From Siphonodentalium dalli (Eukaryota > Mollusca > Scaphopoda > Gadilida > Siphonodentaliidae), in assembly GCA_032622095.1 (NCBI GenBank), contig CP136066.1, positions 6,597,784 through 6,661,783 on the forward strand: a stretch of 64,000 nucleotides of DNA, in the 5' to 3' direction. Position numbers and translations under genes: made by a program. Shown one piece after another: positions 1 to 64,000 of the stretch. Every line of letters begins with the position of its first letter. Positions within the stretch are counted from its first letter, which is position 1. Under the pieces are notes generated by a model, which saw only the letters and a list, made by a program, of their open reading frames with translations, had not been told where the DNA came from and ran no database searches.

Positions 1-3000
1 CTGAGACCATTCTGGTAATAGGACAATAAGAAACGACTGGGGCCATTCTGGACATAGGACAATAAGAAACGACTGGGACCATTCTGGATATAGGACAATA
101 AGAAACTACTGAGACCATTCTGGTAATAGGACAATAAGAAACTACTGAGACCATTCTGGTAATAGGACAATAAGAAACTACTGAGACCATTCTGGACATA
201 GGACAATAAGAAACGACTGGGACCATTCTGGATATAGGACAATAAGAAACTACTGAGACCATTCTGGTAATAGGACAATAAGAAACGACTGAGACCATTC
301 TGGTAATAGGACAATAAGAAACGACTGAGACCATTCTGGTAATAGGACAATAAGAAACTACTGGGACCATTCTGGTAATAGGACAATAAGAAACGACTGA
401 GACCATTCTGGTAATAGGACAATAAGAAACGACTGGGGCCATTCTGGACATAGGACAATAAGAAACTACTGGGAACATTCTGGTAATAGGACAATAAGAA
501 ACGACTGGGGCCATTCTGGACATAGGACAATAAGAAACTACTGAGACCATTCTGGTAATAGGACAATAAGAAACGACTGAGACCATTCTGGTAATAGGAC
601 AATAAGAAACGACTGAGACCATTCTGGTAATAGGACAATAAGAAACTACTGGGACCATTCTGGTAATAGGACAATAAGAAACGACTGGGACCATTCTGGA
701 CATAGGACAATAAGAAACTACTGAGACCATTCTGGTAATAGGACAATAAGAAACGACTGAGACCATTCTGGTAATAGGACAATAAGAAACGACTGGGGCC
801 ATTCTGGACATAGGACAATAAGAAACGACTGAGACCATTCTGGTAATAGGACAATAAGAAACGACTGGGGCCATTCTGGTAATAGGACAATAAGAAACTA
901 CTGAGACCATTCTGGACATAGGACAATAAGAAACTACTGAGACCATTCTGGTAATAGGACAATAAGAAACGACTGAGACCATTCTGGTAATAGGACAATA
1001 AGAAACGACTGGGACCATTCTGGACATAGGACAATAAGAAACGACTGGGGCCATTCTGGACATAGAACAATAAGAAACTACTGAGACCATTCTGGACATA
1101 GGACAATAAGAAACTACTGAGACCATTCTGGACATAGGACAATAAGAAACTACTGAGACCATTCTGGACATAGGACAATAAGAAACGACTGAGACCATTC
1201 TGGTAATAGGACAATAAGAAACTACTGAGACCATTCTGGACATAGGACAATAAGAAACTACTGAGACCATTCTGGTAATAGGACAATAAGAAACGACTGA
1301 GACCATTCTGGACATAGGACAATAAGAAACTACTGAGACCATTCTGGTAATAGGACAATAAGAAACTACTGGGAACATTCTGGTAATAGGACAATAAGAA
1401 ACTACTGAGACCATTCTGGACATAGGACAATAAGAAACGACTGAGATCATTCTGGTAATAGGACAATAAGAAACGACTGGGACCATTCTGGTAATAGGAC
1501 AATAAGAAACGACTGGGACCATTCTGGTAATAGGACAATAAGAAACGACTGAGACCATTCTGGTAATAGGACAATAAGAAACTACTGGGACCATTCTGGT
1601 AATAGGACAATAAGAAACGACTGGGACCATTCTGGATATAGGACAATAAGAAACTACTGAGACCATTCTGGTAATAGGACAATAAGAAACTACTGAGACC
1701 ATTCTGGACATAGGACAATAAGAAACGACTGAGACCATTCTGGACATAGGACAATAAGAAACGACTGAGACCATTCTGGACATAGGACAATAAGAAACGA
1801 CTGGGACCATTCTGGTAATAGGACAATAAGAAACGACTGAGATCATTCTGGTAATAGGACAATAAGAAACTACTGAGATCATTCTGGTAATAGGACAATA
1901 AGAAACGACTGAGACCATTCTGGTAATAGGACAATAAGAAACGACTGAGACCATTCTGGTAATAGGACAATAAGAAACGACTGGGACCATTCTGGTAATA
2001 GGACAATAAGAAACGACTGGGACCATTCTGGTAATAGGACAATAAGAAACGACTGAGACCATTCTGGATATAGGACAATAAGAAACGACTGGGACCATTC
2101 TGGTAATAGGACAATAAGAAACTACTGAGATCATTCTGGTAATAGGACAATAAGAAACGACTGAGACCATTCTGGTAATAGGACAATAAGAAACGACTGG
2201 GACCATTCTGGTAATAGGACAATAAGAAACGACTGGGACCATTCTGGTAATAGGACAATAAGAAACGACTGGGACCATTCTGGTAATAGGACAATAAGAA
2301 ACTACTGGGACCATTCTGGTAATAGGACAATAAGAAACGACTGGGACCATTCTGGTAATAGGACAATAAGAAACGACTGGGACCATTCTGGTAATAGGAC
2401 AATAAGAAACTACTGAGACCATTCTGGTAATAGGACAATAAGAAACGACTGAGATCATTCTGGATATAGGACAATAAGAAACTACTGAGACCATTCTGGT
2501 AATAGGACAATAAGAAACGACTGGGATCATTCTGGTAATAGGACAATAAGAAACTACTGAGACCATTCTGGACATAGGACAATAAGAAACTACTGAGACC
2601 ATTCTGGTAATAGGACAATAAGAAACTACTGAGACCATTCTGGTAATAGGACAATAAGAAACGACTGGGACCATTCTGGACATAGGACAATAAGAAACTA
2701 CTGGGACCATTCTGGTAATAGGACAATAAGAAACGACTGGGACCATTCTGGTAATAGGACAATAAGAAACGACTGAGGCCATTCTGGACATAGGACAATA
2801 AGAAACGACTGGGACCATTCTGGACATAGGACAATAAGAAACGACTGAGACCATTCTGGACATAGGACAATAAGAAACGACTGAGACCATTCTGGTAATA
2901 GGACAATAAGAAACGACTGAGGCCATTCTGGTAATAGGACAATAAGAAACGACTGAGGCCATTCTGGTAATAGGACAATAAGAAACGACTGAGACCATTC

Positions 3001-3636
3001 TGGACATAGGACAATAAGAAACGACTGAGACCATTCTGGACATAGGACAATAAGAAACGACTGAGACCATTCTGGTAATAGGACAATAAGAAACGACTGA
3101 GACCATTCTGGTAATAGGACAATAAGAAACGACTGAGACCATTCTGGATATAGGACAATAAGAAACGACTGGGACCATTCTGTACATAGGACAATAAGAA
3201 ACGACTGAGACCATTCTGGACATAGGACAATAAGAAACGACTGGGGCCATTCTGGTAATAGGACAATAAGAAACGACTGAGATCATTCTGGTAATAGGAC
3301 AATAAGAAACGACTGAGACCATTCTGGTAATAGGACAATAAGAAACGACTGAGACCATTCTGGATATAGGACAATAAGAAACGACTGAGACCATTCTGGT
3401 AATAGGACAATAAGAAACGACTGAGACCATTCTGGTAATAGGACAATAAGAAACGACTGAGATCATTCTGGACATAGGACAATAAGAAACTACTGGGAAC
3501 ATTCTGGACATAGGACAATAAGAAACGACTGGGACCATTCTGGACATAGGACAATAAGAAACGACTGGGACCATTCTGGTAATAGGACAATAAGAAACTA
3601 CTGGGGCCATTCTGGTAATAGGACAATAAGAAACTA
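1..3636 (+). repeat. Mixed satellite stretch without a private marker
   Basis: These 101 monomers mix A4 and G4, mostly TAA-type with many ACA-type and some ATA-type at 16-18, and both G35 and T35. GGCC copies (G6) and GATC copies (T7) are interspersed. A few GGGAAC copies (A7) occur, for example at 469 and 1369, and a single G15T copy at 3169. I see no rare variant that defines a block and no long exact duplication. No gene or unique DNA is present. Confidence 0.9.
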
Positions 3637-6012
3637 CTGATACCATTCTGGTAATAGGACAATAAGAAACGACTGGGACCATTCTGGTAATAGGACAATA
3701 AGAAACTACTGATACCATTCTGGTAATAGGACAATAAGAAACGACTGGGACCATTCTGGTAATAGGACAATAAGAAACGACTGAGATCATTCTGGACATA
3801 GGACAATAAGAAACTACTGGGACCATTCTGGTAATAGGACAATAAGAAACTACTGAGACCATTCTGGTAATAGGACAATAAGAAACGACTGGGACCATTC
3901 TGGTAATAGGACAATAAGAAACTACTGAGATCATTCTGGACATAGGACAATAAGAAACTACTGAGATCATTCTGGTAATAGGACAATAAGAAACTACTGG
4001 GAACATTCTGGTAATAGGACAATAAGAAACGACTGGGACCATTCTGGTAATAGGACAATAAGAAACGACTGAGATCATTCTGGTAATAGGACAATAAGAA
4101 ACTACTGAGACCATTCTGGTAATAGGACAATAAGAAACGACTGATACCATTCTGGTAATAGGACAATAAGAAACGACTGAGATCATTCTGGATATAGGAC
4201 AATAAGAAACGACTGGGGCCATTCTGGTAATAGGACAATAAGAAACGACTGAGATCATTCTGGTAATAGGACAATAAGAAACGACTGAGACCATTCTGGT
4301 AATAGGACAATAAGAAACGACTGATACCATTCTGGTAATAGGACAATAAGAAACGACTGAGATCATTCTGGATATAGGACAATAAGAAACTACTGAGATC
4401 ATTCTGGACATAGGACAATAAGAAACTACTGAGATCATTCTGGTAATAGGACAATAAGAAACTACTGGGAACATTCTGGTAATAGGACAATAAGAAACGA
4501 CTGGGACCATTCTGGTAATAGGACAATAAGAAACGACTGAGATCATTCTGGTAATAGGACAATAAGAAACTACTGAGACCATTCTGGTAATAGGACAATA
4601 AGAAACGACTGATACCATTCTGGTAATAGGACAATAAGAAACGACTGAGATCATTCTGGATATAGGACAATAAGAAACGACTGGGGCCATTCTGGTAATA
4701 GGACAATAAGAAACGACTGAGATCATTCTGGTAATAGGACAATAAGAAACGACTGAGACCATTCTGGTAATAGGACAATAAGAAACGACTGAGACCATTC
4801 TGGTAATAGGACAATAAGAAACGACTGATACCATTCTGGTAATAGGACAATAAGAAACGACTGAGATCATTCTGGATATAGGACAATAAGAAACTACTGA
4901 GACCATTCTGGTAATAGGACAATAAGAAACGACTGGGACCATTCTGGTAATAGGACAATAAGAAACGACTGATACCATTCTGGATATAGGACAATAAGAA
5001 ACTACTGAGATCATTCTGGACATAGGACAATAAGAAACTACTGAGATCATTCTGGTAATAGGACAATAAGAAACTACTGGGGCCATTCTGGTAATAGGAC
5101 AATAAGAAACGACTGAGATCATTCTGGTAATAGGACAATAAGAAACGACTGAGATCATTCTGGTAATAGGACAATAAGAAACGACTGAGATCATTCTGGA
5201 TATAGGACAATAAGAAACGACTGAGACCATTCTGGTAATAGGACAATAAGAAACGACTGATACCATTCTGGTAATAGGACAATAAGAAACGACTGAGATC
5301 ATTCTGGATATAGGACAATAAGAAACGACTGGGGCCATTCTGGTAATAGGACAATAAGAAACGACTGAGACCATTCTGGACATAGGACAATAAGAAACGA
5401 CTGAGATCATTCTGGATATAGGACAATAAGAAACGACTGAGACCATTCTGGTAATAGGACAATAAGAAACGACTGATACCATTCTGGTAATAGGACAATA
5501 AGAAACGACTGAGATCATTCTGGATATAGGACAATAAGAAACGACTGGGGCCATTCTGGTAATAGGACAATAAGAAACGACTGAGACCATTCTGGATATA
5601 GGACAATAAGAAACGACTGAGACCATTCTGGTAATAGGACAATAAGAAACGACTGATACCATTCTGGTAATAGGACAATAAGAAACGACTGAGACCATTC
5701 TGGTAATAGGACAATAAGAAACGACTGAGATCATTCTGGATATAGGACAATAAGAAACGACTGGGACCATTCTGGATATAGGACAATAAGAAACGACTGG
5801 GACCATTCTGGTAATAGGACAATAAGAAACTACTGGGGCCATTCTGGTAATAGGACAATAAGAAACGACTGAGATCATTCTGGATATAGGACAATAAGAA
5901 ACGACTGGGACCATTCTGGTAATAGGACAATAAGAAACTACTGAGATCATTCTGGTAATAGGACAATAAGAAACTACTGATACCATTCTGGTAATAGGAC
6001 AATAAGAAACGA
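3637..6012 (+). repeat. T5 (CTGATACC) satellite neighbourhood
   Basis: A T at monomer position 5 on an A4 background (CTGATACC) occurs in 11 monomers, starting at 3637, 3709, 4141, 4321, 4609, 4825, 4969, 5257, 5473, 5653 and 5977. I saw it nowhere else in the window. It is often followed by a GATC monomer with ATA at 16-18 and then by a GGCC monomer. That cassette recurs at spacings of 5, 6 and 8 monomers. A private marker confined to 2.4 kb implies spread from one founder by local exchange. Confidence 0.93.
3925..4896 (+). repeat. 13-monomer higher-order repeat, two copies, second with one extra monomer
   Basis: Copy one is 3925-4392 (468 bp, 13 monomers) and copy two is 4393-4896 (14 monomers). 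Monomer states match one for one over the first 11 (3925-4320 against 4393-4788). Copy two then has an additional GACC/TAA/G35 monomer at 4789-4824, identical to the one before it. After that the remaining two monomers match. The event looks like a whole-unit duplication followed by, or combined with, a one-monomer slip. A fragment of the same series (its first four monomers) reappears at 6265-6408, and the first two monomers reappear at 5005. Confidence 0.92.
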
Positions 6013-6612
6013 CTGAGATCATTCTGGTAATAGGACAATAAGAAACGACTGAGACCATTCTGGTAATAGGACAATAAGAAACGACTGGGACCATTCTGGT
6101 AATAGGACAATAAGAAACTACTGAGATCATTCTGGTAATAGGACAATAAGAAACGACTGAGATCATTCTGGTAATAGGACAATAAGAAACGACTGAGACC
6201 ATTCTGGTAATAGGACAATAAGAAACGACTGGGACCATTCTGGTAATAGGACAATAAGAAACTACTGAGATCATTCTGGACATAGGACAATAAGAAACTA
6301 CTGAGATCATTCTGGTAATAGGACAATAAGAAACTACTGGGAACATTCTGGTAATAGGACAATAAGAAACGACTGGGACCATTCTGGTAATAGGACAATA
6401 AGAAACGACTGAGACCATTCTGGATATAGGACAATAAGAAACGACTGGGACCATTCTGGACATAGGACAATAAGAAACGACTGGGGCCATTCTGGTAATA
6501 GGACAATAAGAAACGACTGGGACCATTCTGGACATAGGACAATAAGAAACTACTGGGACCATTCTGGTAATAGGACAATAAGAAACTACTGAGACCATTC
6601 TGGACATAGAAC

Positions 6613-7400
6613 AATAAGAAACGACTGGGACCATTCTGGACATAGAACAATAAGAAACGACTGAGACCATTCTGGTAATAGGACAATAAGAAACTACTGA
6701 GACCATTCTGGACATAGGACAATAAGAAACAACTGAGACCATTCTGGTAATAGGACAATAAGAAACAACTGAGACCATTCTGGTAATAGGACAATAAGAA
6801 ACGACTGGGACCATTCTGGTAATAGGACAATAAGAAACGACTGAGACCATTCTGGACATAGGACAATAAGAAACTACTGAGACCATTCTGGTAATAGGAC
6901 AATAAGAAACGACTGGGACCATTCTGGTAATAGAACAATAAGAAACGACTGAGACCATTCTGGTAATAGGACAATAAGAAACTACTGAGACCATTCTGGA
7001 CATAGGACAATAAGAAACAACTGAGACCATTCTGGTAATAGGACAATAAGAAACTACTGAGACCATTCTGGACATAGAACAATAAGAAACGACTGAGACC
7101 ATTCTGGTAATAGGACAATAAGAAACTACTGAGACCATTCTGGTAATAGGACAATAAGAAACTACTGAGACCATTCTGGACATAGAACAATAAGAAACGA
7201 CTGGGATCATTCTGGTAATAGGACAATAAGAAACAACTGAGACCATTCTGGACATAGAACAATAAGAAACGACTGAGACCATTCTGGATATAGGACAATA
7301 AGAAACGACTGGGACCATTCTGGTAATAGGACAATAAGAAACAACTGAGACCATTCTGGACATAGAACAATAAGAAACGACTGGGACCATTCTGGACATA
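6613..7400 (+). repeat. A35/A22 variant cluster
   Basis: Five monomers carry the rare A at position 35 (at 6731, 6767, 7019, 7235 and 7343). Many neighbours have A at position 22 (TAGAACAAT instead of TAGGACAAT), mostly on ACA-type monomers. A35 is otherwise rare: I noted it near 8531, 32111, 32291, 59939 and 60191. A35 converts the single CpG of the monomer (C34-G35) to CA, the product expected from deamination on the opposite strand. The clustering suggests spread of one event rather than repeated mutation. Confidence 0.85.
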
Positions 7401-16603: not shown

Positions 16604-17691
16604 CATTCTGGATATAGGACAATAAGAAACGACTGAGACCATTCTGGTAATAGGACAATAAGAAACGACTGAGATCATTCTGGTAATAGGACAATAAGAA
16701 ACGACTGAGACCATTCTGGACATAGGACAATAAGAAACTACTGAGACCATTCTGGTAATAGGACAATAAGAAACTACTGAGACCATTCTGGTAATAGGAC
16801 AATAAGAAACGACTGGGACCATTCTGGTAATAGGACAATAAGAAACTACTGAGACCATTCTGGATATAGGACAATAAGAAACGACTGAGACCATTCTGGT
16901 AATAGGACAATAAGAAACGACTGAGATCATTCTGGTAATAGGACAATAAGAAACGACTGAGACCATTCTGGACATAGGACAATAAGAAACTACTGAGATC
17001 ATTCTGGTAATAGGACAATAAGAAACTACTGAGACCATTCTGGACATAGGACAATAAGAAACTACTGAGACCATTCTGGTAATAGGACAATAAGAAACTA
17101 CTGAGACCATTCTGGACATAGGACAATAAGAAACTACTGAGATCATTCTGGATATAGGACAATAAGAAACGACTGAGACCATTCTGGTAATAGGACAATA
17201 AGAAACGACTGAGATCATTCTGGTAATAGGACAATAAGAAACGACTGAGACCATTCTGGACATAGGACAATAAGAAACTACTGAGACCATTCTGGTAATA
17301 GGACAATAAGAAACTACTGAGACCATTCTGGTAATAGGACAATAAGAAACGACTGGGACCATTCTGGTAATAGGACAATAAGAAACTACTGAGACCATTC
17401 TGGATATAGGACAATAAGAAACGACTGAGACCATTCTGGTAATAGGACAATAAGAAACGACTGAGATCATTCTGGTAATAGGACAATAAGAAACGACTGA
17501 GACCATTCTGGACATAGGACAATAAGAAACTACTGAGATCATTCTGGTAATAGGACAATAAGAAACTACTGAGACCATTCTGGACATAGGACAATAAGAA
17601 ACTACTGAGACCATTCTGGTAATAGGACAATAAGAAACTACTGAGACCATTCTGGACATAGGACAATAAGAAACTACTGAGATCATTCTGG
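16604..17691 (+). repeat. Exact 540-bp tandem duplication (15 monomers)
   Basis: Bases 16604-17151 are identical to 17144-17691, a 548-base match at an offset of 540, with no mismatch across all variable sites. The match ends on the left at a C/T difference at position 7 (16603 against 17143) and on the right at an A/T difference at position 16 (17152 against 17692). The unit contains a mixture of GATC, GACC, TAA-, ACA- and ATA-type monomers, so agreement is informative and not just consensus. It is the longest exact duplication I found and is probably the most recent. Confidence 0.95.
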
Positions 17692-25776: not shown

Positions 25777-26532
25777 CGGGGACCATTCTGGTAATAGGAC
25801 AATAAGAAACGACTGGGACCATTCTGGTAATAGGACAATAAGAAACGACTGAGACCATTCTGGATATAGGACAATAAGAAACGACTGGGACCATTCTGGA
25901 TATAGGACAATAAGAAACGACTGGGACCATTCTGGACATAGGACAATAAGAAACTACTGAGACCATTCTGGTAATAGGACAATAAGAAACGACTGGGGCC
26001 ATTCTGGTAATAGGACAATAAGAAACGACGGGGACCATTCTGGTAATAGGACAATAAGAAACGACTGGGACCATTCTGGTAATAGGACAATAAGAAACGA
26101 CTGAGACCATTCTGGATATAGGACAATAAGAAACGACTGGGACCATTCTGGATATAGGACAATAAGAAACTACTGGGACCATTCTGGTAATAGGACAATA
26201 AGAAACTACTGAGACCATTCTGGTAATAGGACAATAAGAAACGACGGGGACCATTCTGGTAATAGGACAATAAGAAACGACTGGGACCATTCTGGTAATA
26301 GGACAATAAGAAACGACTGAGACCATTCTGGATATAGGACAATAAGAAACGACTGGGACCATTCTGGATATAGGACAATAAGAAACGACTGGGACCATTC
26401 TGGACATAGGACAATAAGAAACTACTGAGACCATTCTGGTAATAGGACAATAAGAAACGACTGGGGCCATTCTGGTAATAGGACAATAAGAAACGACGGG
26501 GACCATTCTGGTAATAGGACAATAAGAAACGA
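25777..26532 (+). repeat. CGG (G2) neighbourhood, 7+6 monomer higher-order repeat
   Basis: Four monomers have G at position 2 (CGGGGACC), at 25777, 26029, 26245 and 26497, and I saw none elsewhere. Spacings are 7, 6 and 7 monomers. The 7-monomer segment 25777-26028 is identical to 26245-26496, and identity continues through the next CGG monomer to about 26080/26548. The larger unit is therefore 13 monomers (468 bp). The 6-monomer middle part follows the same order of states as the 7-monomer part but lacks one copy, which suggests loss of one monomer during exchange. The G2 change adds a CpG. Confidence 0.93.
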
Positions 26533-28116
26533 CTGGGACCATTCTGGATATAGGACAATAAGAAACGACTGGGACCATTCTGGACATAGGACAATAAGAA
26601 ACTACTGGGACCATTCTGGACATAGGACAATAAGAAACGACTGAGACCATTCTGGACATAGGACAATAAGAAACGACTGAGGCCATTCTGGTAATAGGAC
26701 AATAAGAAACTACTGGGACCATTCTGGTAATAGGACAATAAGAAACGACTGGGACCATTCTGGATATAGGACAATAAGAAACGACTGGGACCATTCTGGA
26801 CATAGGACAATAAGAAACGACTGAGACCATTCTGGTAATAGGACAATAAGAAACGACTGAGGCCATTCTGGTAATAGGACAATAAGAAACTACTGGGACC
26901 ATTCTGGTAATAGGACAATAAGAAACGACTGAGATCATTCTGGACATAGGACAATAAGAAACTACTGAGATCATTCTGGTAATAGGACAATAAGAAACGA
27001 CTGGGACCATTCTGGACATAGAACAATAAGAAACGACTGAGACCATTCTGGATATAGGACAATAAGAAACGACTGAGACCATTCTGGTAATAGGACAATA
27101 AGAAACTACTGGGACCATTCTGGTAATAGGACAATAAGAAACGACTGAGACCATTCTGGATATAGGACAATAAGAAACGACTGAGACCATTCTGGACATA
27201 GAACAATAAGAAACGACTGAGACCATTCTGGACATAGGACAATAAGAAACTACTGGAACCATTCTGTACATAGAACAATAAGAAACGACTGGGACCATTC
27301 TGGACATAGGACAATAAGAAACGACTGGGACCATTCTGTACATAGAACAATAAGAAACGACTGAGACCATTCTGGACATAGGACAATAAGAAACGACTGG
27401 GACCATTCTGTACATAGAACAATAAGAAACGACTGGGACCATTCTGGACATAGGACAATAAGAAACGACTGAGACCATTCTGGTAATAGGACAATAAGAA
27501 ACGACTGGGACCATTCTGGACATAGGACAATAAGAAACGACTGGGACCATTCTGGTAATAGGACAATAAGAAACTACTGGGACCATTCTGGTAATAGGAC
27601 AATAAGAAACGACTGAGACCATTCTGGTAATAGGACAATAAGAAACTACTGGGACCATTCTGGTAATAGGACAATAAGAAACGACTGAGACCATTCTGGT
27701 AATAGGACAATAAGAAACGACTGAGATCATTCTGGATATAGGACAATAAGAAACTACTGGGACCATTCTGGATATAGGACAATAAGAAACGACTGAGACC
27801 ATTCTGGTAATAGGACAATAAGAAACTACTGGGACCATTCTGGTAATAGGACAATAAGAAACTACTGGGACCATTCTGGTAATAGGACAATAAGAAACTA
27901 CTGGGACCATTCTGGATATAGGACAATAAGAAACTACTGGGACCATTCTGGACATAGGACAATAAGAAACTACTGGGAACATTCTGGACATAGGACAATA
28001 AGAAACTACTGGGACCATTCTGGACATAGGACAATAAGAAACTACTGGGACCATTCTGGTAATAGGACAATAAGAAACTACTGGGACCATTCTGAATATA
28101 GGACAATAAGAAACGA
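26533..28116 (+). repeat. Mixed stretch with TGTACA (T15) dimer repeat
   Basis: Three monomers with G15T, ACA at 16-18 and A22 occur at 27253, 27325 and 27397, alternating with ordinary ACA-type monomers. This makes a 72-bp dimer repeated about three times at 27253-27468. T15 also occurs singly at 3169, 22609 and 37729, and twice at 33301 and 33445. From about 27.5 to 28.1 kb, G4 and T35 copies dominate. A G15A copy lies at 28081. No gene or unique sequence is present. Confidence 0.87.
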
Positions 28117-28548
28117 CTGAGACCATTCTGGACATAGGACAATAAGAAACGACTGGGACCATTCTGGACATAGGACAATAAGAAACGACTGGGACCATTC
28201 TGGACATATAACAATAAGAAACGACTGAGGCCATTCTGGACATAGGACAATAAGAAACGACTGGGACCATTCTGGATATAGGACAATAAGAAACGACTGA
28301 GGCCATTCTGGACATAGGACAATAAGAAACGACTGGGGCCATTCTGGACATAGGACAATAAGAAACGACTGGGGCCATTCTGGACATAGGACAATAAGAA
28401 ACGACTGAGACCATTCTGGACATAGGACAATAAGAAACGACTGGGACCATTCTGGATATAGGACAATAAGAAACGACTGAGACCATTCTGGTAATAGGAC
28501 AATAAGAAACGACTGGGACCATTCTGGACATAGGACAATAAGAAACGA

Positions 28549-29556
28549 CTGGGACCATTCTGGACATAGGACAATAAGAAACGACTGGGACCATTCTGGA
28601 TATAGGACAATAAGAAACGACTTGGACCATTCTGGATATAGGACAATAAGAAACGACTTGGACCATTCTGGACATAGGACAATAAGAAACGACTGAGACC
28701 ATTCTGGAAATAGAACAATAAGAAACGACTGGGACCATTCTGGACATAGGACAATAAGAAACGACTGGGACCATTCTGGATATAGGACAATAAGAAACGA
28801 CTGAGACCATTCTGGAAATAGAACAATAAGAAACGACTGGGACCATTCTGGACATAGGACAATAAGAAACGACTGGGACCATTCTGGATATAGGACAATA
28901 AGAAACGACTTGGACCATTCTGGATATAGGACAATAAGAAACGACTTGGACCATTCTGGACATAGGACAATAAGAAACGACTGAGACCATTCTGGAAATA
29001 GAACAATAAGAAACGACTGGGACCATTCTGGAAATAGGACAATAAGAAACGACTGGGACCATTCTGGATATAGAACAATAAGAAACGACTGAGACCATTC
29101 TGGACATAGGACAATAAGAAACTACTGAGACCATTCTGGACATAGGACAATAAGAAACGACTGAGACCATTCTGGACATAGGACAATAAGAAACGACTGG
29201 GACCATTCTGGACATAGGACAATAAGAAACGACTGAGACCATTCTGGATATAGAACAATAAGAAACGACTTGGACCATTCTGGACATAGGACAATAAGAA
29301 ACGACTGGGACCATTCTGGACATAGGACAATAAGAAACGACTGGGACCATTCTGGACATAGGACAATAAGAAACGACTGGGACCATTCTGGACATAGGAC
29401 AATAAGAAACGACTGGGACCATTCTGGATATAGGACAATAAGAAACGACTTGGACCATTCTGGATATAGGACAATAAGAAACGACTTGGACCATTCTGGA
29501 CATAGGACAATAAGAAACGACTGAGACCATTCTGGAAATAGAACAATAAGAAACGA
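28549..29556 (+). repeat. Five-monomer cassette with CTT (T3) variants, three copies
   Basis: An identical 180-bp cassette occurs at 28549-28728, 28837-29016 and 29377-29556, offset by 288 bp (8 monomers) and 540 bp (15 monomers). Its order is G4/ACA, G4/ATA, T3/ATA, T3/ACA, then A4/AAA with A22. Copies one and three share further monomers on both sides (28513 with 29341, and 28729-28800 with 29557-29628). T3 (CTTGGACC) monomers also occur at 29269, 29629 and 31645 and nowhere else that I noticed. In the + frame that starts at position 2, T3 turns TGG into TTG. Confidence 0.92.
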
Positions 29557-30240
29557 CTGGGACCATTCTGGACATAGGACAATAAGAAACGACTGGGACC
29601 ATTCTGGATATAGGACAATAAGAAACGACTTGGACCATTCTGGACATAGGACAATAAGAAACGACTGGGACCATTCTGGACATAGGACAATAAGAAACGA
29701 CTGGGACCATTCTGGATATATAACAATAAGAAACGACTGGGACCATTCTGGATATATAACAATAAGAAACGACTGGGACCATTCTGGAAATAGAACAATA
29801 AGAAACGACTGGGACCATTCTGGACATAGGACAATAAGAAACGACTGGGACCATTCTGGATATATAACAATAAGAAACGACTGGGACCATTCTGGATATA
29901 GGACAATAAGAAACTACTGAGACCATTCTGGATATAGGACAATAAGAAACTACTGAGACCATTCTGGACATAGGACAATAAGAAACTACTGAGACCATTC
30001 TGGATATAGGACAATAAGAAACGACTGGGACCATTCTGGATATAGGACAATAAGAAACGACTGGGACCATTCTGGATATAGGACAATAAGAAACTACTGA
30101 GACCATTCTGGATATAGAACAATAAGAAACGACTGGGACCATTCTGAATATAGGACAATAAGAAACGACTGAGACCATTCTGGACATAGGACAATAAGAA
30201 ACGACTGGGACCATTCTGGACATAGGACAATAAGAAACGA

Positions 30241-30348
30241 CTGGGACCATTCTGGACATATAACAATAAGAAACGACTGGGGCCATTCTGGACATATAAC
30301 AATAAGAAACGACTGGGGCCATTCTGGACATATAACAATAAGAAACGA
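30241..30348 (+). repeat. Run of three ACA-TATAAC monomers
   Basis: Three consecutive monomers (30241, 30277, 30313) combine ACA at 16-18 with T21 and A22 (ACATATAAC). The second and third also have G6. Elsewhere T21/A22 usually sits on ATA-type monomers, so this combination suggests a recombinant monomer that was then amplified to three copies. A single earlier ACATATAAC copy lies near 28.2 kb. Confidence 0.85.
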
Positions 30349-32098
30349 CTGAGACCATTCTGGACATAGAACAATAAGAAACGACTGAGACCATTCTGGA
30401 TATAGGACAATAAGAAACGACTGGGACCATTCTGGACATAGAACAATAAGAAACGACTGAGACCATTCTGGTAATAGGACAATAAGAAACGACTGGGACC
30501 ATTCTGGACATAGAACAATAAGAAACGACTGGGACCATTCTGGATATAGGACAATAAGAAACGACTGGGACCATTCTGGTAATAGGACAATAAGAAACGA
30601 CTGAGACCATTCTGGACATAGGACAATAAGAAACGACTGAGACCATTCTGGACATAGGACAATAAGAAACTACTGAGACCATTCTGGACATAGAACAATA
30701 AGAAACGACTGAGACCATTCTGGTAATAGGACAATAAGAAACGACTGGGACCATTCTGGTAATAGGACAATAAGAAACGACTGAGACCATTCTGGATATA
30801 GGACAATAAGAAACGACTGGGACCATTCTGGACATAGGACAATAAGAAACGACTGGGACCATTCTGGACATAGGACAATAAGAAACGACTGGGACCATTC
30901 TGGACATAGGACAATAAGAAACGACTGGGGCCATTCTGGATATAGGACAATAAGAAACGACTGGGACCATTCTGGACATAGAACAATACGAAACGACTGG
31001 GACCATTCTGGTAATAGGACAATAAGAAACGACTGGGACCATTCTGGACATAGGACAATAAGAAACGACTGAGACCATTCTGGACATAGGACAATAAGAA
31101 ACGACTGGGACCATTCTGGACATAGGACAATAAGAAACGACTGAGACCATTCTGGACATAGGACAATAAGAAACGACTGGGGCCATTCTGGACATAGGAC
31201 AATAAGAAACGACTGGGACCATTCTGGACATAGGACAATAAGAAACGACTGAGACCATTCTGGACATAGGACAATAAGAAACGACTGGGACCATTCTGGA
31301 CATAGAACAATAAGAAACGACTGAGGCCATTCTGGATATAGAACAATAAGAAACGACTGAGACCATTCTGGTAATAGGACAATAAGAAACGACTGAGACC
31401 ATTCTGGACATAGAACAATAAGAAACGACTGAGACCATTCTGGTAATAGGACAATAAGAAACGACTGGGACCATTCTGGACATAGGACAATAAGAAACGA
31501 CTGGGACCATTCTGGTAATAGGACAATAAGAAACGACTGGGACCATTCTGGATATAGAACAATAAGAAACGACTGGGACCATTCTGGTAATAGGACAATA
31601 AGAAACGACTGGGACCATTCTGGATATAGAACAATAAGAAACGACTTGGACCATTCTGGATATAGGACAATAAGAAACGACTGGGATCATTCTGGACATA
31701 GGACAATAAGAAACGACTGAGATCATTCTGGACATAGGACAATAAGAAACGACTGAGACCATTCTGGACATAGGACAATAAGAAACGACTGAGACCATTC
31801 TGGACATAGAACAATAAGAAACGACTGAGACCATTCTGGACATAGAACAATAAGAAACGACTGAGACCATTCTGGACATAGGACAATAAGAAACGACTGA
31901 GACCATTCTGGTAATAGGACAATAAGAAACGACTGGGACCATTCTGGATATAGGACAATAAGAAACGACTGGGACCATTCTGGACATAGGACAATAAGAA
32001 ACGACTGAGACCATTCTGGACATAGGACAATAAGAAACGACTGAGACCATTCTGGATATAGGACAATAAGAAACGACTGAGACCATTCTGGACATAGG

Positions 32099-32439
32099 AC
32101 AATAAGAAACAACTGAGATCATTCTGGATATAGGACAATAAGAAACGACTGAGACCATTCTGGACATAGGACAATAAGAAACGACTGGGACCATTCTGGT
32201 AATAGGACAATAAGAAACGACTGGGACCATTCTGGACATAGAACAATAAGAAACGACTGAGACCATTCTGGACATAGAACAATAAGAAACAACTGAGATC
32301 ATTCTGGATATAGGACAATAAGAAACGACTGAGACCATTCTGGACATAGGACAATAAGAAACGACTGGGACCATTCTGGTAATAGGACAATAAGAAACGA
32401 CTGGGACCATTCTGGACATAGAACAATAAGAAACGACTG
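32099..32439 (+). repeat. 180-bp offset duplication carrying A35
   Basis: Bases 32099-32259 equal 32279-32439 (161 bases, 5-monomer offset). Both arms begin just before a CAA (A35) site followed by a GATC/ATA monomer, then GACC/ACA, GGACC/TAA and GGACC/ACA-A22 monomers. The limits are a G/A difference at position 22 (32098 against 32278) and an A/G difference at position 4 (32260 against 32440). On the minus strand A35 produces the TTG used as the start of a 129-codon open frame, which I do not regard as a gene. Confidence 0.9.
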
Positions 32440-33738
32440 GGACCATTCTGGTAATAGGACAATAAGAAACGACTGGGACCATTCTGGACATAGGACAATA
32501 AGAAACGACTGGGACCATTCTGGACATAGAACAATAAGAAACGACTGGGACCATTCTGGTAATAGGACAATAAGAAACGACTGGGACCATTCTGGATATA
32601 GGACAATAAGAAACGACTGGGACCATTCTGGACATAGAACAATAAGAAACGACTGAGACCATTCTGGACATAGGACAATAAGAAACGACTGGGACCATTC
32701 TGGATATAGGACAATAAGAAACGACTGAGACCATTCTGGATATAGAACAATAAGAAACGACTGGGGCCATTCTGGACATAGGACAATAAGAAACGACTGG
32801 GACCATTCTGGACATAGGACAATAAGAAACGACTGAGACCATTCTGGATATAGGACAATAAGAAACGACTGAGACCATTCTGGACATAGGACAATAAGAA
32901 ACGACTGGGACCATTCTGGATATAGGACAATAAGAAACGACTGAGACCATTCTGGATATAGAACAATAAGAAACGACTGGGACCATTCTGGATATAGGAC
33001 AATAAGAAACGACTGGGACCATTCTGGGAATACAACAATAAGAAACGACTGGGATCATTCTGGAAATAGAACAATACGAAACGACTGGGACCATTCTGGA
33101 CATAGGACAATAAGAAACGACTGGGGCCATTCTGGACATAGGACAATAAGAAACGACTGGGACCATTCTGGACATAGGACAATAAGAAACGACTGGGGCC
33201 ATTCTGGACATAGGACAATAAGAAACGACTGGGACCATTCTGGACATAGGACAATAAGAAACGACTGGGACCATTCTGGATATAGGACAATAAGAAACGA
33301 CTGGGACCATTCTGTACATAGGACAATAAGAAACGACTGGGACCATTCTGGATATATAACAATAAGAAACGACTGGGACCATTCTGGACATAGGACAATA
33401 AGAAACGACTGGGACCATTCTGGATATATAACAATAAGAAACGACTGGGACCATTCTGTACATAGGACAATAAGAAACGACTGGGACCATTCTGGATATA
33501 TAACAATAAGAAACGACTGAGACCATTCTGGACATAGAACAATAAGAAACGACTGGGACCATTCTGGACATAGGACAATAAGAAACGACTGAGACCATTC
33601 TGGACATAGGACAATAAGAAACGACTGGGACCATTCTGGACATAGGACAATAAGAAACGACTGGGACCATTCTGGACATAGAACAATAAGAAACGACTGG
33701 GACCATTCTGGACATAGAACAATAAGAAACGACTGGGA

Positions 33739-34288
33739 CCATTCTGGACATAGAACAATAAGAAACGACTGGGACCATTCTGGACATAGAACAATAAGAA
33801 ACGACTGAGGCCATTCTGGATATAGAACAATAAGAAACGACTGAGGCCATTCTGGACATAGGACAATAAGAAACGACTGAGACCATTCTGGACATAGGAC
33901 AATAAGAAACGACTGGGACCATTCTGGATATATAACAATAAGAAACGACTGAGACCATTCTGGACATAGGACAATAAGAAACGACTGGGACCATTCTGGA
34001 TATATAACAATAAGAAACGACTGAGGCCATTCTGGACATAGAACAATAAGAAACGACTGGGACCATTCTGGACATAGAACAATAAGAAACGACTGAGGCC
34101 ATTCTGGATATAGAACAATAAGAAACGACTGAGGCCATTCTGGACATAGGACAATAAGAAACGACTGAGACCATTCTGGACATAGGACAATAAGAAACGA
34201 CTGGGACCATTCTGGATATATAACAATAAGAAACGACTGAGACCATTCTGGACATAGGACAATAAGAAACGACTGGGACCATTCTGGA
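33739..34288 (+). repeat. 8-monomer higher-order repeat (288 bp)
   Basis: Bases 33739-34000 equal 34027-34288 (262 bases at a 288-bp offset). The unit order is ACA-A22, G6/ATA-A22, G6/ACA, A4/ACA, G4/ATA-TATAAC, A4/ACA. These are rare states, so the match is strong evidence of a shared origin. The limits are differences at positions 4 and 6 on the left and at position 17 on the right (34001 against 34289). Confidence 0.92.
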
Positions 34289-36004
34289 CATAGAACAATA
34301 AGAAACGACTGGGACCATTCTGGACATAGAACAATAAGAAACGACTGGGACCATTCTGGACATAGGACAATAAGAAACGACTGGGACCATTCTGGACATA
34401 GGACAATAAGAAACGACTGAGACCATTCTGGACATAGGACAATAAGAAACGACTGGGACCATTCTGGAAATAGGACAATAAGAAACTACTGAGACCATTC
34501 TGGTAATAGGACAATAAGAAACGACTGAGACCATTCTGGATATAGGACAATAAGAAACGACTGGGACCATTCTGGACATAGAACAATAAGAAACGACTGA
34601 GACCATTCTGGACATAGGACAATAAGAAACGACTGGGACCATTCTGGACATAGGACAATAAGAAACGACTGGGACCATTCTGGACATAGGACAATAAGAA
34701 ACGACTGGGACCATTCTGGACATAGGACAATAAGAAACGACTGGGACCATTCTGGACATAGGACAATAAGAAACGACTGGGACCATTCTGGACATAGGAC
34801 AATAAGAAACGACTGGGGCCATTCTGGACATAGGACAATAAGAAACTACTGAGACCATTCTGGATATAGGACAATAAGAAACGACTGAGGCCATTCTGGT
34901 AATAGGACAATAAGAAACGACTGAGACCATTCTGGACATAGGACAATAAGAAACGACTGAGACCATTCTGGTAATAGGACAATAAGAAACGACTGAGGCC
35001 ATTCTGGTAATAGGACAATAAGAAACGACTGGGGCCATTCTGGACATAGGACAATAAGAAACGACTGAGACCATTCTGGATATAGGACAATAAGAAACGA
35101 CTGAGGCCATTCTGGTAATAGGACAATAAGAAACGACTGGGACCATTCTGGACATAGGACAATAAGAAACTACTGAGACCATTCTGGATATAGGACAATA
35201 AGAAACGACTGAGGCCATTCTGGTAATAGGACAATAAGAAACGACTGAGACCATTCTGGACATAGGACAATAAGAAACGACTGAGACCATTCTGGTAATA
35301 GGACAATAAGAAACGACTGAGGCCATTCTGGTAATAGGACAATAAGAAACGACTGGGGCCATTCTGGATATAGGACAATAAGAAACTACTGGGACCATTC
35401 TGGACATAGGACAATAAGAAACGACTGAGACCATTCTGGTAATAGGACAATAAGAAACGACTGAGACCATTCTGGTAATAGGACAATAAGAAACGACTGG
35501 GACCATTCTGGTAATAGGACAATAAGAAACTACTGGGACCATTCTGGACATAGGACAATAAGAAACTACTGAGACCATTCTGGTAATAGGACAATAAGAA
35601 ACTACTGGGACCATTCTGGTAATAGGACAATAAGAAACGACTGAGACCATTCTGGAAATAGGACAATAAGAAACTACTGGGACCATTCTGGTAATAGAAC
35701 AATAAGAAACGACTGAGACCATTCTGGAAATAGGACAATAAGAAACGACTGAGACCATTCTGGTAATAGGACAATAAGAAACTACTGAGACCATTCTGGT
35801 AATAGGACAATAAGAAACGACTGAGGCCATTCTGGTAATAGGACAATAAGAAACGACTGAGACCATTCTGGACATAGGACAATAAGAAACGACTGAGACC
35901 ATTCTGGTAATAGGACAATAAGAAACGACTGAGGCCATTCTGGTAATAGGACAATAAGAAACGACTGAGACCATTCTGGACATAGGACAATAAGAAACGA
36001 CTGG

Positions 36005-36879
36005 GACCATTCTGGACATAGGACAATAAGAAACGACTGAGACCATTCTGGACATAGGACAATAAGAAACGACTGGGACCATTCTGGACATAGGACAATA
36101 AGAAACGACTGAGACCATTCTGGTAATAGGACAATAAGAAACGACTGAGGCCATTCTGGACATAGGACAATAAGAAACGACTGAGGCCATTCTGGTAATA
36201 GGACAATAAGAAACGACTGAGACCATTCTGGACATAGGACAATAAGAAACTACTGAGACCATTCTGGTAATAGGACAATAAGAAACGACTGAGACCATTC
36301 TGGACATAGGACAATAAGAAACTACTGAGACCATTCTGGACATAGGACAATAAGAAACGACTGAGACCATTCTGGTAATAGGACAATAAGAAACGACTGA
36401 GGCCATTCTGGACATAGGACAATAAGAAACGACTGAGGCCATTCTGGTAATAGGACAATAAGAAACGACTGGGACCATTCTGGACATAGGACAATAAGAA
36501 ACTACTGAGACCATTCTGGTAATAGGACAATAAGAAACTACTGAGACCATTCTGGACATAGGACAATAAGAAACGACTGAGACCATTCTGGACATAGGAC
36601 AATAAGAAACGACTGGGACCATTCTGGACATAGGACAATAAGAAACGACTGAGACCATTCTGGTAATAGGACAATAAGAAACGACTGAGGCCATTCTGGA
36701 CATAGGACAATAAGAAACGACTGAGGCCATTCTGGTAATAGGACAATAAGAAACGACTGAGACCATTCTGGACATAGGACAATAAGAAACTACTGAGACC
36801 ATTCTGGTAATAGGACAATAAGAAACGACTGAGACCATTCTGGACATAGGACAATAAGAAACTACTGAGACCATTCTGG
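36005..36879 (+). repeat. 540-bp offset duplication (15 monomers), lightly diverged
   Basis: Bases 36005-36339 equal 36545-36879. Beyond that, similarity continues through about 37.0 kb with single differences, such as A/T at position 16 (36340 against 36880). The unit has a characteristic order of A4 GACC, G6/ACA, G6/TAA and T35-linked monomers. A 15-monomer offset is also seen at 9.1, 16.6 and 28.8 kb, but with different contents, so it is not one repeat dispersed over the array. Confidence 0.9.
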
Positions 36880-39800
36880 TAATAGGACAATAAGAAACGA
36901 CTGAGACCATTCTGGTAATAGGACAATAAGAAACGACTGAGGCCATTCTGGACATAGGACAATAAGAAACGACTGAGGCCATTCTGGTAATAGGACAATA
37001 AGAAACGACTGAGACCATTCTGGACATAGGACAATAAGAAACTACTGAGACCATTCTGGTAATAGGACAATAAGAAACGACTGAGACCATTCTGGACATA
37101 GGACAATAAGAAACTACTGAGACCATTCTGGACATAGGACAATAAGAAACGACTGAGACCATTCTGGTAATAGGACAATAAGAAACGACTGAGGCCATTC
37201 TGGACATAGGACAATAAGAAACGACTGAGGCCATTCTGGTAATAGGACAATAAGAAACGACTGGGACCATTCTGGACATAGGACAATAAGAAACTACTGA
37301 GACCATTCTGGTAATAGGACAATAAGAAACTACTGAGACCATTCTGGACATAGGACAATAAGAAACGACTGAGACCATTCTGGACATAGGACAATAAGAA
37401 ACGACTGGGACCATTCTGGACATAGGACAATAAGAAACGACTGAGACCATTCTGGTAATAGGACAATAAGAAACGACTGAGGCCATTCTGGACATAGGAC
37501 AATAAGAAACGACTGAGGCCATTCTGGTAATAGGACAATAAGAAACGACTGAGACCATTCTGGACATAGAACAATAAGAAACGACTGAGACCATTCTGGT
37601 AATAGGACAATAAGAAACTACTGAGACCATTCTGGTAATAGGACAATAAGAAACGACTGAGACCATTCTGGTAATAGGACAATAAGAAACGACTGAGGCC
37701 ATTCTGGTAATAGGACAATAAGAAACGACTGAGGCCATTCTGTACATAGGACAATAAGAAACGACTGAGGCCATTCTGGTAATAGGACAATAAGAAACGA
37801 CTGAGGCCATTCTGGACATAGGACAATAAGAAACGACTGAGGCCATTCTGGTAATAGGACAATAAGAAACGACTGGGACCATTCTGGACATAGGACAATA
37901 AGAAACGACTGAGACCATTCTGGTAATAGGACAATAAGAAACGACTGAGGCCATTCTGGACATAGGACAATAAGAAACGACTGAGGCCATTCTGGTAATA
38001 GGACAATAAGAAACGACTGGGACCATTCTGGTAATAGGACAATAAGAAACTACTGGGACCATTCTGGTAATAGGACAATAAGAAACTACTGAGACCATTC
38101 TGGTAATAGGACAATAAGAAACGACTGGGACCATTCTGGTAATAGGACAATAAGAAACGACTGGGAACATTCTGGTAATAGGACAATAAGAAACGACTGG
38201 GACCATTCTGGTAATAGGACAATAAGAAACGACTGAGACCATTCTGGACATAGGACAATAAGAAACTACTGAGACCATTCTGGACATAGGACAATAAGAA
38301 ACGACTGAGACCATTCTGGTAATAGGACAATAAGAAACGACTGAGGCCATTCTGGACATAGGACAATAAGAAACGACTGAGGCCATTCTGGTAATAGGAC
38401 AATAAGAAACTACTGAGACCATTCTGGTAATAGGACAATAAGAAACGACTGAGACCATTCTGGTAATAGGACAATAAGAAACTACTGGGACCATTCTGGT
38501 AATAGGACAATAAGAAACTACTGAGACCATTCTGGTAATAGGACAATAAGAAACGACTGAGACCATTCTGGACATAGGACAATAAGAAACGACTGAGACC
38601 ATTCTGGTAATAGGACAATAAGAAACTACTGAGACCATTCTGGTAATAGGACAATAAGAAACTACTGAGACCATTCTGGACATAGGACAATAAGAAACTA
38701 CTGAGACCATTCTGGTAATAGGACAATAAGAAACGACTGAGACCATTCTGGTAATAGGACAATAAGAAACTACTGAGACCATTCTGGTAATAGGACAATA
38801 AGAAACTACTGAGACCATTCTGGACATAGGACAATAAGAAACTACTGAGACCATTCTGGTAATAGGACAATAAGAAACGACTGAGACCATTCTGGTAATA
38901 GGACAATAAGAAACTACTGAGACCATTCTGGTAATAGGACAATAAGAAACTACTGAGACCATTCTGGACATAGGACAATAAGAAACTACTGAGACCATTC
39001 TGGTAATAGGACAATAAGAAACGACTGAGACCATTCTGGACATAGGACAATAAGAAACGACTGAGACCATTCTGGTAATAGGACAATAAGAAACTACTGA
39101 GGCCATTCTGGTAATAGGACAATAAGAAACGACTGAGGCCATTCTGGACATAGGACAATAAGAAACGACTGAGGCCATTCTGGTAATAGGACAATAAGAA
39201 ACTACTGAGACCATTCTGGTAATAGGACAATAAGAAACGACTGAGACCATTCTGGTAATAGGACAATAAGAAACGACTGGGACCATTCTGGTAATAGGAC
39301 AATAAGAAACGACTGAGACCATTCTGGTAATAGGACAATAAGAAACTACTGGGACCATTCTGGACATAGGACAATAAGAAACTACTGAGACCATTCTGGT
39401 AATAGGACAATAAGAAACTACTGTGACCATTCTGGACATAGGACAATAAGAAACGACTGAGACCATTCTGGTAATAGGACAATAAGAAACGACTGGGGCC
39501 ATTCTGGTAATAGGACAATAAGAAACGACTGGGGCCATTCTGGTAATAGGACAATAAGAAACGACTGAGACCATTCTGGTAATAGGACAATAAGAAACGA
39601 CTGGGGCCATTCTGGTAATAGGACAATAAGAAACGACTGGGACCATTCTGGATATAGAACAATAAGAAACGACTGGGGCCATTCTGGATATAGGACAATA
39701 AGAAACGACTGGGACCATTCTGGTAATAGGACAATAAGAAACGACTGAGACCATTCTGGACATAGGACAATAAGAAACGACTGAGACCATTCTGGATATA

Positions 39801-60100: not shown

Positions 60101-63100
60101 AATAGGACAATAAGAAACTACTGGGGCCATTCTGGTAATAGGACAATAAGAAACGACTGAGACCATTCTGGTAATAGGACAATAAGAAACAACTGGGAAC
60201 ATTCTGGTAATAGGACAATAAGAAACTACTGAGACCATTCTGGATATAGGACAATAAGAAACGACTGGGGCCATTCTGGTAATAGGACAATAAGAAACTA
60301 CTGGGGCCATTCTGGACATAGGACAATAAGAAACGACTGGGGCCATTCTGGTAATAGGACAATAAGAAACTACTGGGACCATTCTGGACATAGGACAATA
60401 AGAAACGACTGGGGCCATTCTGGTAATAGGACAATAAGAAACTACTGGGGCCATTCTGGTAATAGGACAATAAGAAACTACTGAGGCCATTCTGGTAATA
60501 GGACAATAAGAAACGACTGGGGCCATTCTGGTAATAGGACAATAAGAAACGACTGAGACCATTCTGGTAATAGGACAATAAGAAACGACTGGGGCCATTC
60601 TGGACATAGGACAATAAGAAACGACTGGGACCATTCTGGTAATAGGACAATAAGAAACGACTGAGACCATTCTGGTAATAGGACAATAAGAAACTACTGA
60701 GACCATTCTGGTAATAGGACAATAAGAAACGACTGAGACCATTCTGGTAATAGGACAATAAGAAACTACTGAGACCATTCTGGTAATAGGACAATAAGAA
60801 ACGACTGGGACCATTCTGGATATAGGACAATAAGAAACGACTGAGACCATTCTGGACATAGGACAATAAGAAACGACTGAGACCATTCTGGTAATAGGAC
60901 AATAAGAAACGACTGGGGCCATTCTGGACATAGGACAATAAGAAACGACTGAGACCATTCTGGATATAGGACAATAAGAAACGACTGGGACCATTCTGGT
61001 AATAGGACAATAAGAAACGACTGGGGCCATTCTGGTAATAGGACAATAAGAAACTACTGGGACCATTCTGGTAATAGGACAATAAGAAACGACTGAGACC
61101 ATTCTGGTAATAGGACAATAAGAAACTACTGAGACCATTCTGGACATAGGACAATAAGAAACGACTGAGACCATTCTGGATATAGGACAATAAGAAACGA
61201 CTGGGACCATTCTGGTAATAGGACAATAAGAAACGACTGGGGCCATTCTGGTAATAGGACAATAAGAAACGACTGGGGCCATTCTGGTAATAGGACAATA
61301 AGAAACTACTGAGACCATTCTGGTAATAGGACAATAAGAAACTACTGAGACCATTCTGGTAATAGGACAATAAGAAACGACTGGGACCATTCTGGTAATA
61401 GGACAATAAGAAACGACTGGGGCCATTCTGGACATAGGACAATAAGAAACTACTGAGATCATTCTGGACATAGGACAATAAGAAACGACTGAGACCATTC
61501 TGGATATAGGACAATAAGAAACGACTGAGACCATTCTGGACATAGGACAATAAGAAACGACTGAGACCATTCTGGTAATAGGACAATAAGAAACGACTGG
61601 GGCCATTCTGGACATAGGACAATAAGAAACGACTGAGACCATTCTGGATATAGGACAATAAGAAACGACTGGGACCATTCTGGTAATAGGACAATAAGAA
61701 ACGACTGGGGCCATTCTGGTAATAGGACAATAAGAAACTACTGGGACCATTCTGGTAATAGGACAATAAGAAACGACTGAGACCATTCTGGTAATAGGAC
61801 AATAAGAAACTACTGGGACCATTCTGGTAATAGGACAATAAGAAACGACTGAGACCATTCTGGTAATAGGACAATAAGAAACTACTGAGACCATTCTGGA
61901 CATAGGACAATAAGAAACGACTGAGACCATTCTGGATATAGGACAATAAGAAACGACTGGGACCATTCTGGTAATAGGACAATAAGAAACGACTGGGGCC
62001 ATTCTGGTAATAGGACAATAAGAAACTACTGGGACCATTCTGGTAATAGGACAATAAGAAACGACTGGGGCCATTCTGGACATAGGACAATAAGAAACGA
62101 CTGGGACCATTCTGGATATAGGACAATAAGAAACGACTGGGACCATTCTGGTAATAGGACAATAAGAAACTACTGAGACCATTCTGGATATAGGACAATA
62201 AGAAACGACTGGGACCATTCTGGACATAGGACAATAAGAAACGACTGAGATCATTCTGGTAATAGGACAATAAGAAACTACTGAGACCATTCTGGTAATA
62301 GGACAATAAGAAACGACTGAGACCATTCTGGACATAGGACAATAAGAAACGACTGGGACCATTCTGGTAATAGGACAATAAGAAACGACTGGGGCCATTC
62401 TGGTAATAGGACAATAAGAAACTACTGAGACCATTCTGGTAATAGGACAATAAGAAACTACTGAGGCCATTCTGGTAATAGGACAATAAGAAACTACTGA
62501 GGCCATTCTGGTAATAGGACAATAAGAAACTACTGGGACCATTCTGGTAATAGGACAATAAGAAACGACTGAGACCATTCTGGTAATAGGACAATAAGAA
62601 ACTACTGAGATCATTCTGGTAATAGGACAATAAGAAACGACTGGGACCATTCTGGACATAGGACAATAAGAAACGACTGGGGCCATTCTGGACATAGGAC
62701 AATAAGAAACGACTGGGACCATTCTGGACATAGGACAATAAGAAACGACTGAGGCCATTCTGGACATAGGACAATAAGAAACGACTGGGACCATTCTGGA
62801 CATAGGACAATAAGAAACGACTGGGGCCATTCTGGTAATAGGACAATAAGAAACGACTGAGATCATTCTGGTAATAGGACAATAAGAAACGACTGAGATC
62901 ATTCTGGTAATAGGACAATAAGAAACGACTGGGGCCATTCTGGTAATAGGACAATAAGAAACGACTGAGACCATTCTGGTAATAGGACAATAAGAAACGA
63001 CTGGGACCATTCTGGACATAGGACAATAAGAAACGACTGAGGCCATTCTGGACATAGGACAATAAGAAACGACTGAGGCCATTCTGGACATAGGACAATA

Positions 63101-64000
63101 AGAAACGACTGGGACCATTCTGGACATAGGACAATAAGAAACGACTGAGGCCATTCTGGACATAGGACAATAAGAAACGACTGGGACCATTCTGGACATA
63201 GGACAATAAGAAACGACTGGGACCATTCTGGTAATAGGACAATAAGACACGACTGAGATCATTCTGGTAATAGGACAATAAGAAACGACTGAGATCATTC
63301 TGGTAATAGGACAATAAGAAACGACTGAGACCATTCTGGTAATAGGACAATAAGAAACGACTGAGGCCATTCTGGACATAGGACAATAAGAAACGACTGG
63401 GACCATTCTGGACATAGGACAATAAGAAACGACTGGGACCATTCTGGACATAGAACAATAAGAAACGACTGCGACCATTCTGGTAATAGGACAATAAGAA
63501 ACGACTGAGACCATTCTGGACATAGGACAATAAGAAACTACTGGGACCATTCTGGATATAGGACAATAAGAAACGACTGGGACCATTCTGGTAATAGGAC
63601 AATAAGAAACGACTGAGACCATTCTGGTAATAGGACAATAAGAAACGACTGAGACCATTCTGGTAATAGGACAATAAGAAACTACTGAGACCATTCTGGA
63701 TATAGGACAATAAGAAACGACTGGGACCATTCTGGATATAGGACAATAAGAAACGACTGGGACCATTCTGGTAATAGGACAATAAGAAACGACTGAGACC
63801 ATTCTGGTAATAGGACAATAAGAAACGACTGGGACCATTCTGGTAATAGGACAATAAGAAACGACTGGGACCATTCTGGACATAGGACAATAAGAAACGA
63901 CTGGGACCATTCTGGATATAGGACAATAAGAAACGACTGGGACCATTCTGGTAATAGGACAATAAGAAACGACTGGGACCATTCTGGACATAGGACAATA
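57133..64000 (+). repeat. Mixed satellite stretch to the window end
   Basis: TAA-, ACA- and some ATA-types are mixed, and G4 G6 (GGGCC) copies are abundant at about 59.1-60.6 kb. C4 (CTGCGACC) copies at 57601 and 57673 form a 72-bp duplicated dimer, and C4 recurs at 59077 and 63469. The 59077 monomer also has A at position 12 (59088), the only change I saw inside CATTCTG. A35 sites at 59939 and 60191 mark a 7-monomer repeat (59941-60192 against 60193-60444, with several differences). A32C occurs once at 63248. The last monomer is cut at its 28th base by the window end. Confidence 0.87.

Follow-up and report, generated by a model that had tools for sequence, protein, structure and literature searches.

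Few independent mutations probably explain the constant monomer length of a 36-bp satellite array in Siphonodentalium dalli

How a tandem array can accumulate thousands of substituted bases and yet show no change in the length of its monomer is the question raised by this locus. The window, the whole 64,000-nucleotide stretch of Siphonodentalium dalli DNA analysed here, is occupied from base 1 to base 64000 by a single uninterrupted 36-bp tandem array, which TRF returns as one row (period 36, 1777.8 copies) with 93% matches and 0% indels. The array runs to both window edges and neither of its ends lies inside the 64-kb window.

1..64000, no strand assigned: 36-bp tandem array with consensus CTGAGACCATTCTGGTAATAGGACAATAAGAAACGA, comprising 1777 full monomers and a 28-base tail.

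The register of the array is strict. When the sequence is cut every 36 bases from base 1, 19 of the 36 columns hold the same letter in all 1777 monomers. The near-invariant word CATTCTG is present in 1776 of the 1777 monomers, with 1775 of 1776 intervals at 36 bp and the remaining one at 72 bp, owing to a substitution in one monomer. Monomers of 35 or 37 bases, insertions, deletions and foreign sequence are all absent from the 64-kb window. The constant register that the sequence-only reading had reported from base 1 to base 64000 is thus borne out by TRF, the column table and the CATTCTG spacing. The commonest compound difference between monomers, TA versus AC or AT at columns 16-17, also allows an alignment with one deletion and one insertion, and with cheap gaps 726 of the 1777 monomers score better in this way. 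The intermediate AA occupies these columns in 13 monomers, which makes two substitutions the simpler reading, with a compensated deletion/insertion pair as the alternative.

The variation within the array is extensive in cells and narrow in kinds. The 3347 substituted cells reduce to 28 variant types, each defined by column and letter, located in 17 columns and combined into 110 distinct monomer types among the 1777 full monomers. The earlier mention of hundreds of substitutions is correct as a count of cells, behind which stand these 28 types. Nine common types are present in 69 to 760 copies each, while 19 types have at most 19 copies, including six singletons. Rare variants tend to lie close together: of the 11 types with 4-30 copies, which the local-clustering test covered, eight are clustered locally, with a median-gap P of at most 0.0165 against random placement, and the other three (5 G to A, 15 G to T and 29 A to C) have a scattered distribution (P 0.25-0.30). 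If every local cluster of a rare type is taken as one event, and every common type likewise, the total comes to 33 to 58 independent events as the gap cut-off is lowered from 400 to 30 monomers, with a floor of 28. The number of independent mutations is thus estimated at about 28-58, where 58 is not an upper bound since common types may conceal recurrent events; the three scattered rare types also mean that there were possibly more events than counted. In a tandem array, counting substituted cells rather than independent mutations overstates the evidence for constraint.

Three further properties of the variants were observed. Transitions make up 9 of the 28 types and transversions 19, a proportion that differs from a 2:1 expectation (P 0.0002) and from a 1:1 expectation (P 0.04). 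At the sole consensus CpG, formed by C34 and G35, a change of C to T is absent from all 1777 monomers and one of G to A is seen in just 10, a pattern that suggests either a low level of CpG methylation or a young array. All eight monomers with T at column 15 carry AC at columns 16-17, yet they sit in five separate places, and this linkage reflects either an old dispersed haplotype or context-dependent mutation.

The array carries numerous block copies, all in register. Exact repeats of at least five monomers number 30, the longest spanning 18 monomers at a lag of 22, as compared with 1-3 such repeats, the longest of 5-6 monomers, in five shuffles. The lags of these 30 repeats range from 4 to 77 monomers, except for two repeats of five monomers at lags of 816 and 1104. 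At the DNA level, a scan of lags that are multiples of 36 recovered 13 exact repeats of 250-688 bp at lags of 4-77 monomers, while off-register lags (below 3000 and not a multiple of 36) yield no exact match longer than 6 bp. The principal blocks, together with a locally spread rare variant and a regional domain, are as follows.

36090..37569, plus strand: longest exact block duplication, 688 bp, with its copy 22 monomers (792 bp) off, from the exact-repeat scan.
16604..17691, plus strand: exact 548-bp block with its copy 15 monomers (540 bp) off, from the exact-repeat scan.
3906..4792, plus strand: exact 419-bp block with its copy 13 monomers (468 bp) off, from the exact-repeat scan.
25777..26532, plus strand: rare variant T to G at column 2 spread locally, in four copies at spacings of 7, 6 and 7 monomers.
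27973..35964, plus strand: homogenisation domain rich in A at column 16 and A at column 22, from the regional allele table.

The neighbours of the four column-2 T to G copies are largely the same. Two monomers are identical with a chance of 0.10-0.12 at lags 1-5 and of 0.065-0.079 at lags 50-60, the random level being 0.065. Allele frequencies change along the array in kilobase-scale domains, and within the domain at 27973..35964 the frequency of A at column 16 is 0.78-0.89 and that of A at column 22 is 0.24-0.25, against 0.14-0.51 and 0.00-0.09, respectively, in the other 14 full bins. This pattern is what in-register unequal exchange or replication misalignment usually leaves behind. Of the features of a satellite, the locus shows a long head-to-tail array of one monomer and homogenisation by local exchange.

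These observations are probably best explained by an ordinary satellite array that turns over by in-register duplication and deletion of blocks, in which indels are missing mainly because independent mutations are few and the monomer is without long base runs. Blocks of several to tens of monomers would be duplicated or deleted in register in a homology-driven manner, through unequal exchange or replication misalignment, and with about 28-58 independent mutations falling on such a monomer few indels would be expected. The remainder might be due to chance, possibly with a mild pairing disadvantage of off-length monomers. The simplest cause, few independent mutations and no long slippage tracts, had been left unweighed by the sequence-only reading.

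The degree to which the absence of indels is surprising depends on the number of events and on the mutational ratio assumed. With r as the indel:substitution odds and N as the number of independent events, the probability of observing no indel is (1/(1+r))^N. The human germline ratio is 0.118 (1.5e-9 over 1.27e-8), as given in an excerpt of PMC4309431. At this ratio, which may not be that of the host, the zero-indel probability falls from 0.044 with 28 events to 0.0038 with 50 and 0.0016 with 58. The same excerpt of PMC4309431 places de novo indels mostly in highly repetitive DNA, and a passage of PMC13147462 describes hotspots of 1-2 bp indels as dominated by mono- and dinucleotide repeats. 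In the array, no base run of the consensus is longer than AAA, and none anywhere in the window is longer than GGGG, a run present at 135 places, of which 131 fall within columns 3-6 of full monomers. As for secondary structure, neither strand of the one 144-base stretch that was folded does better than its shuffles (z 0.04 and -0.74). The human ratio was also halved because no base run in the window exceeds four, which gives zero-indel probabilities of 0.20 (28 events), 0.057 (50) and 0.036 (58); the halving is assumed, not measured, and the array too is a repeat. A much higher ratio applies to the maize Mo17 5S rDNA copies, for which an extract of PMC10335936 reports 48 SNPs and 22 indels, and at the ratio in that extract the zero-indel probability is 3e-5 with 28 events. 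Tandem repeats commonly evolve by acquiring indels according to a section of PMC4053949, a study from which monomers under 50 bp were excluded. Indels in the array are somewhat scarcer than a (human) genome average would give. The deficit is mild at most and unproven, and a constraint on length is not needed to explain it.

In-register block exchange is evidently active in the array, and exchange might itself purge indels if a monomer of the wrong length paired less well and went uncopied, although this is an unlikely account of the locus. In a neutral simulation of in-register block duplication and deletion free of any bias, the pooled indel:substitution ratio was 0.045 for an input of 0.05 and 0.104 for an input of 0.1; indels were lacking altogether from 17 of the 24 runs at the lower input and from 12 of the 24 at the higher. 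Both ratios were run on 24 arrays started from one set of 24 seeds, and the two sets of results are therefore interdependent. The simulated arrays held 600 monomers and about 9 segregating substitution types against 28 in the real array, which means that the simulation informs on direction and not on magnitude. Neutral exchange thus leaves the indel ratio near its input, and a pairing bias would have to be added to it. In addition, a single base within a block of hundreds would barely disturb pairing. Of the previously proposed role of exchange, in-register block copying is clearly present, while a filtering of indels did not emerge from copying by itself in the neutral simulation.

A second possibility, also rather unlikely, is that a sequence-specific protein or a chromatin array reads conserved blocks at columns 8-14 and 23-34 at a fixed spacing, so that off-length monomers are lost. 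The block at columns 8-14 is exact in 1776 of the 1777 monomers and that at columns 23-34 in 1761 of 1777. The 19 invariant columns exceed the 14.5 expected from a random placing of 28 types (P 0.005), and the variant types taken together are clustered by column, with P values of 0.005, 0.003 and 0.004 for pairs within 0, 2 and 3 columns. However, the clustering is not clear for the 19 rare and presumably younger types (P 0.17, 0.06 and 0.06 within 0, 2 and 3 columns), nor for the 17 types with at most 10 copies (P 0.47, 0.08 and 0.08). A two-arc statistic was reached by none of 1500 random placements when all types were used and had a P of 0.13 for the 19 rare types; it carries no weight because it was picked after the data were seen. 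The clustering of all types hints at uneven tolerance or uneven mutability, and it also leaves room for founders differing at few places.

The spacing itself also argues against such a constraint. A length of 180 bp is about a nucleosome repeat, but lag 5, which corresponds to it, is not preferred, with a value of 0.9381 against 0.9371-0.9386 at lags 3, 4, 6 and 7. With a DNA helix repeat of 10.5, 36 bp amounts to about 3.4 helical turns, so rotational phase is not kept from one monomer to the next. In a scan of the consensus on either strand, the best match to the CENP-B box, NTTCGNNNNANNCGGGN, has 4 mismatches in 9 positions. The suggestion made from the letters that length is under constraint thus finds no confirmation, as lag 5 is unfavoured, a CENP-B-like box is lacking from the consensus and the rare types are not clearly clustered. 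A more specific form, in which a protein would read CATTCTG and ACAATAAGAAAC at fixed spacing, with block sequence and monomer length both selected and the common variants confined to tolerated linkers (columns 4-7 and 16-22, plus 35), is very unlikely. If monomer length were truly protected, such satellites would provide a direct readout of a spacing-dependent function.

It is highly improbable that assembly polishing or collapse took out real indels. Every 700-mer in the window is unique, and long reads should therefore be placeable without ambiguity. Moreover, 110 monomer types are kept, six singleton variants among them, which argues against a smoothing of the sequence towards a consensus.

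A constant length would also arise if the array were, or descended from, a minus-strand coding repeat with a 12-residue unit, read in the frame YCPITRMVSVVS, in which frameshifts are or were selected against. This origin, like polishing, has very little probability. It is raised by two minus-strand frames that are open end to end.

1..64000, minus strand: two stop-free frames, one of 21,333 codons and the other of 21,332, both considered probably non-coding.

Frame YCPITRMVSVVS scores 92.3 bits over 400 residues against the Pfam family Epiplasmin (PF10992). Six of six 240-residue stretches of this frame exceed the Epiplasmin cut-off of 30 (37.5 to 63.9 bits), and one 36-residue stretch gives an E value of 0.018, though with 15.5 bits it remains below that cut-off. 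Six column-permuted controls, cut to 240 of 396 residues, reach at most 28.9 bits with any family, and the translations of two unrelated repeats reach 21.4 bits with other families. Nevertheless, two of the six permuted controls exceed some family's own cut-off, and one matches Epiplasmin at 16.4 bits. As every copy repeats one 12-residue unit, long stretches add little independent evidence. The likeness to Epiplasmin thus exceeds that of the few controls, with an independent content of one 12-residue unit. The second open frame scores under every Pfam cut-off, and both open frames are far under the NCBIfam cut-offs.

Codon-level evidence is mixed. On the consensus background, the changes 3 G to T (9 copies) and 15 G to T (8 copies) would each create a stop in one open frame, and they are always linked to letters that avoid the stop, in 9 of 9 and 8 of 8 copies, respectively. 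Against this, synonymous types are not in significant excess, with 10 of 28 against 27 of 108 possible (P 0.10) and 5 of 28 against 22 of 108 (P 0.74). Purifying selection on the Epiplasmin-like reading is thus not apparent from a synonymous excess of P 0.10, a comparison of low power with 28 types. Open frames are, furthermore, readily obtained by chance, since at least three of the six frames are open in 65% of 5000 shuffled 36-mers; the consensus itself has three open frames, every one on the minus strand, and variants close one of them. A 64-kb intronless stretch of a single unit would also be an unlikely gene. Relatives were found neither in PDB sequences nor in viral contigs nor in prokaryote contigs, where none of five pattern matches was confirmed. 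The monomer may descend from a coding repeat or resemble one by chance, while a working 64-kb gene is unlikely.

Matches to plasmid and phage DNA were considered as possible relatives and set aside. A tblastn search matched four plasmid and seven phage records, and both of the records examined (2 of 11) are 18-bp repeats, a period that divides 36. The phage match lies on the strand antisense to the annotated gene and scores 96.7 bits in its true order, the best of 40 permuted orders giving 65.9. The plasmid match starts 343 bases into an annotated gene, and so falls in another frame. The phage match is read as a chance match of periodic sequences, though its true order beats all 40 permutations. 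As to the two loci themselves, a hypothetical-protein gene of a Haliscomenobacter plasmid (L001:1286-1910) consists for the most part of 34.7 copies of an 18-bp unit with 0% indels, which translates to a 6-residue repeat. The Streptococcus phage gene annotated as glycerol kinase (L002:983-1346) contains 20.2 copies of an 18-bp repeat, likewise with 0% indels, and its annotation looks doubtful.

Other searches for relatives gave no match, these being exact pattern scans for the array in prokaryote and viral contigs, blastn with bases 1-1800 in phage and plasmid sequences, and Rfam at gathering scores over bases 1-4000. The kind of array and the lack of DNA matches in the prokaryote, viral, phage and plasmid collections point to a eukaryotic source. 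Monomer fragments sought in full-text literature matched solely a text on the insulin receptor. The only named 36-bp satellite matched by length, as far as an excerpt of PMC6922343 describes it, is 36TR, a tandem repeat with a 36-bp monomer in the pDv element of Drosophila virilis.

The comparison with 36TR is one of length only, the 36-bp monomer being common to both. According to the same excerpt, 36TR lies inside a transposable element; the S. dalli window holds no sequence other than the array and has its flanks beyond view. The maize Mo17 5S rDNA, as presented in the extract cited above, is alike in being a long tandem array with many variant copies; it differs in having a genic unit with a spacer and in carrying 22 indels next to 48 SNPs, whereas the S. 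dalli array has none. Relative to satellite and minisatellite arrays in general, the S. dalli array is distinguished by a short monomer and by the absence of any length variant in 64 kb. With those evolving under unequal exchange (concerted evolution) it shares head-to-tail monomers, duplications at whole-monomer lags and local homogenisation domains.
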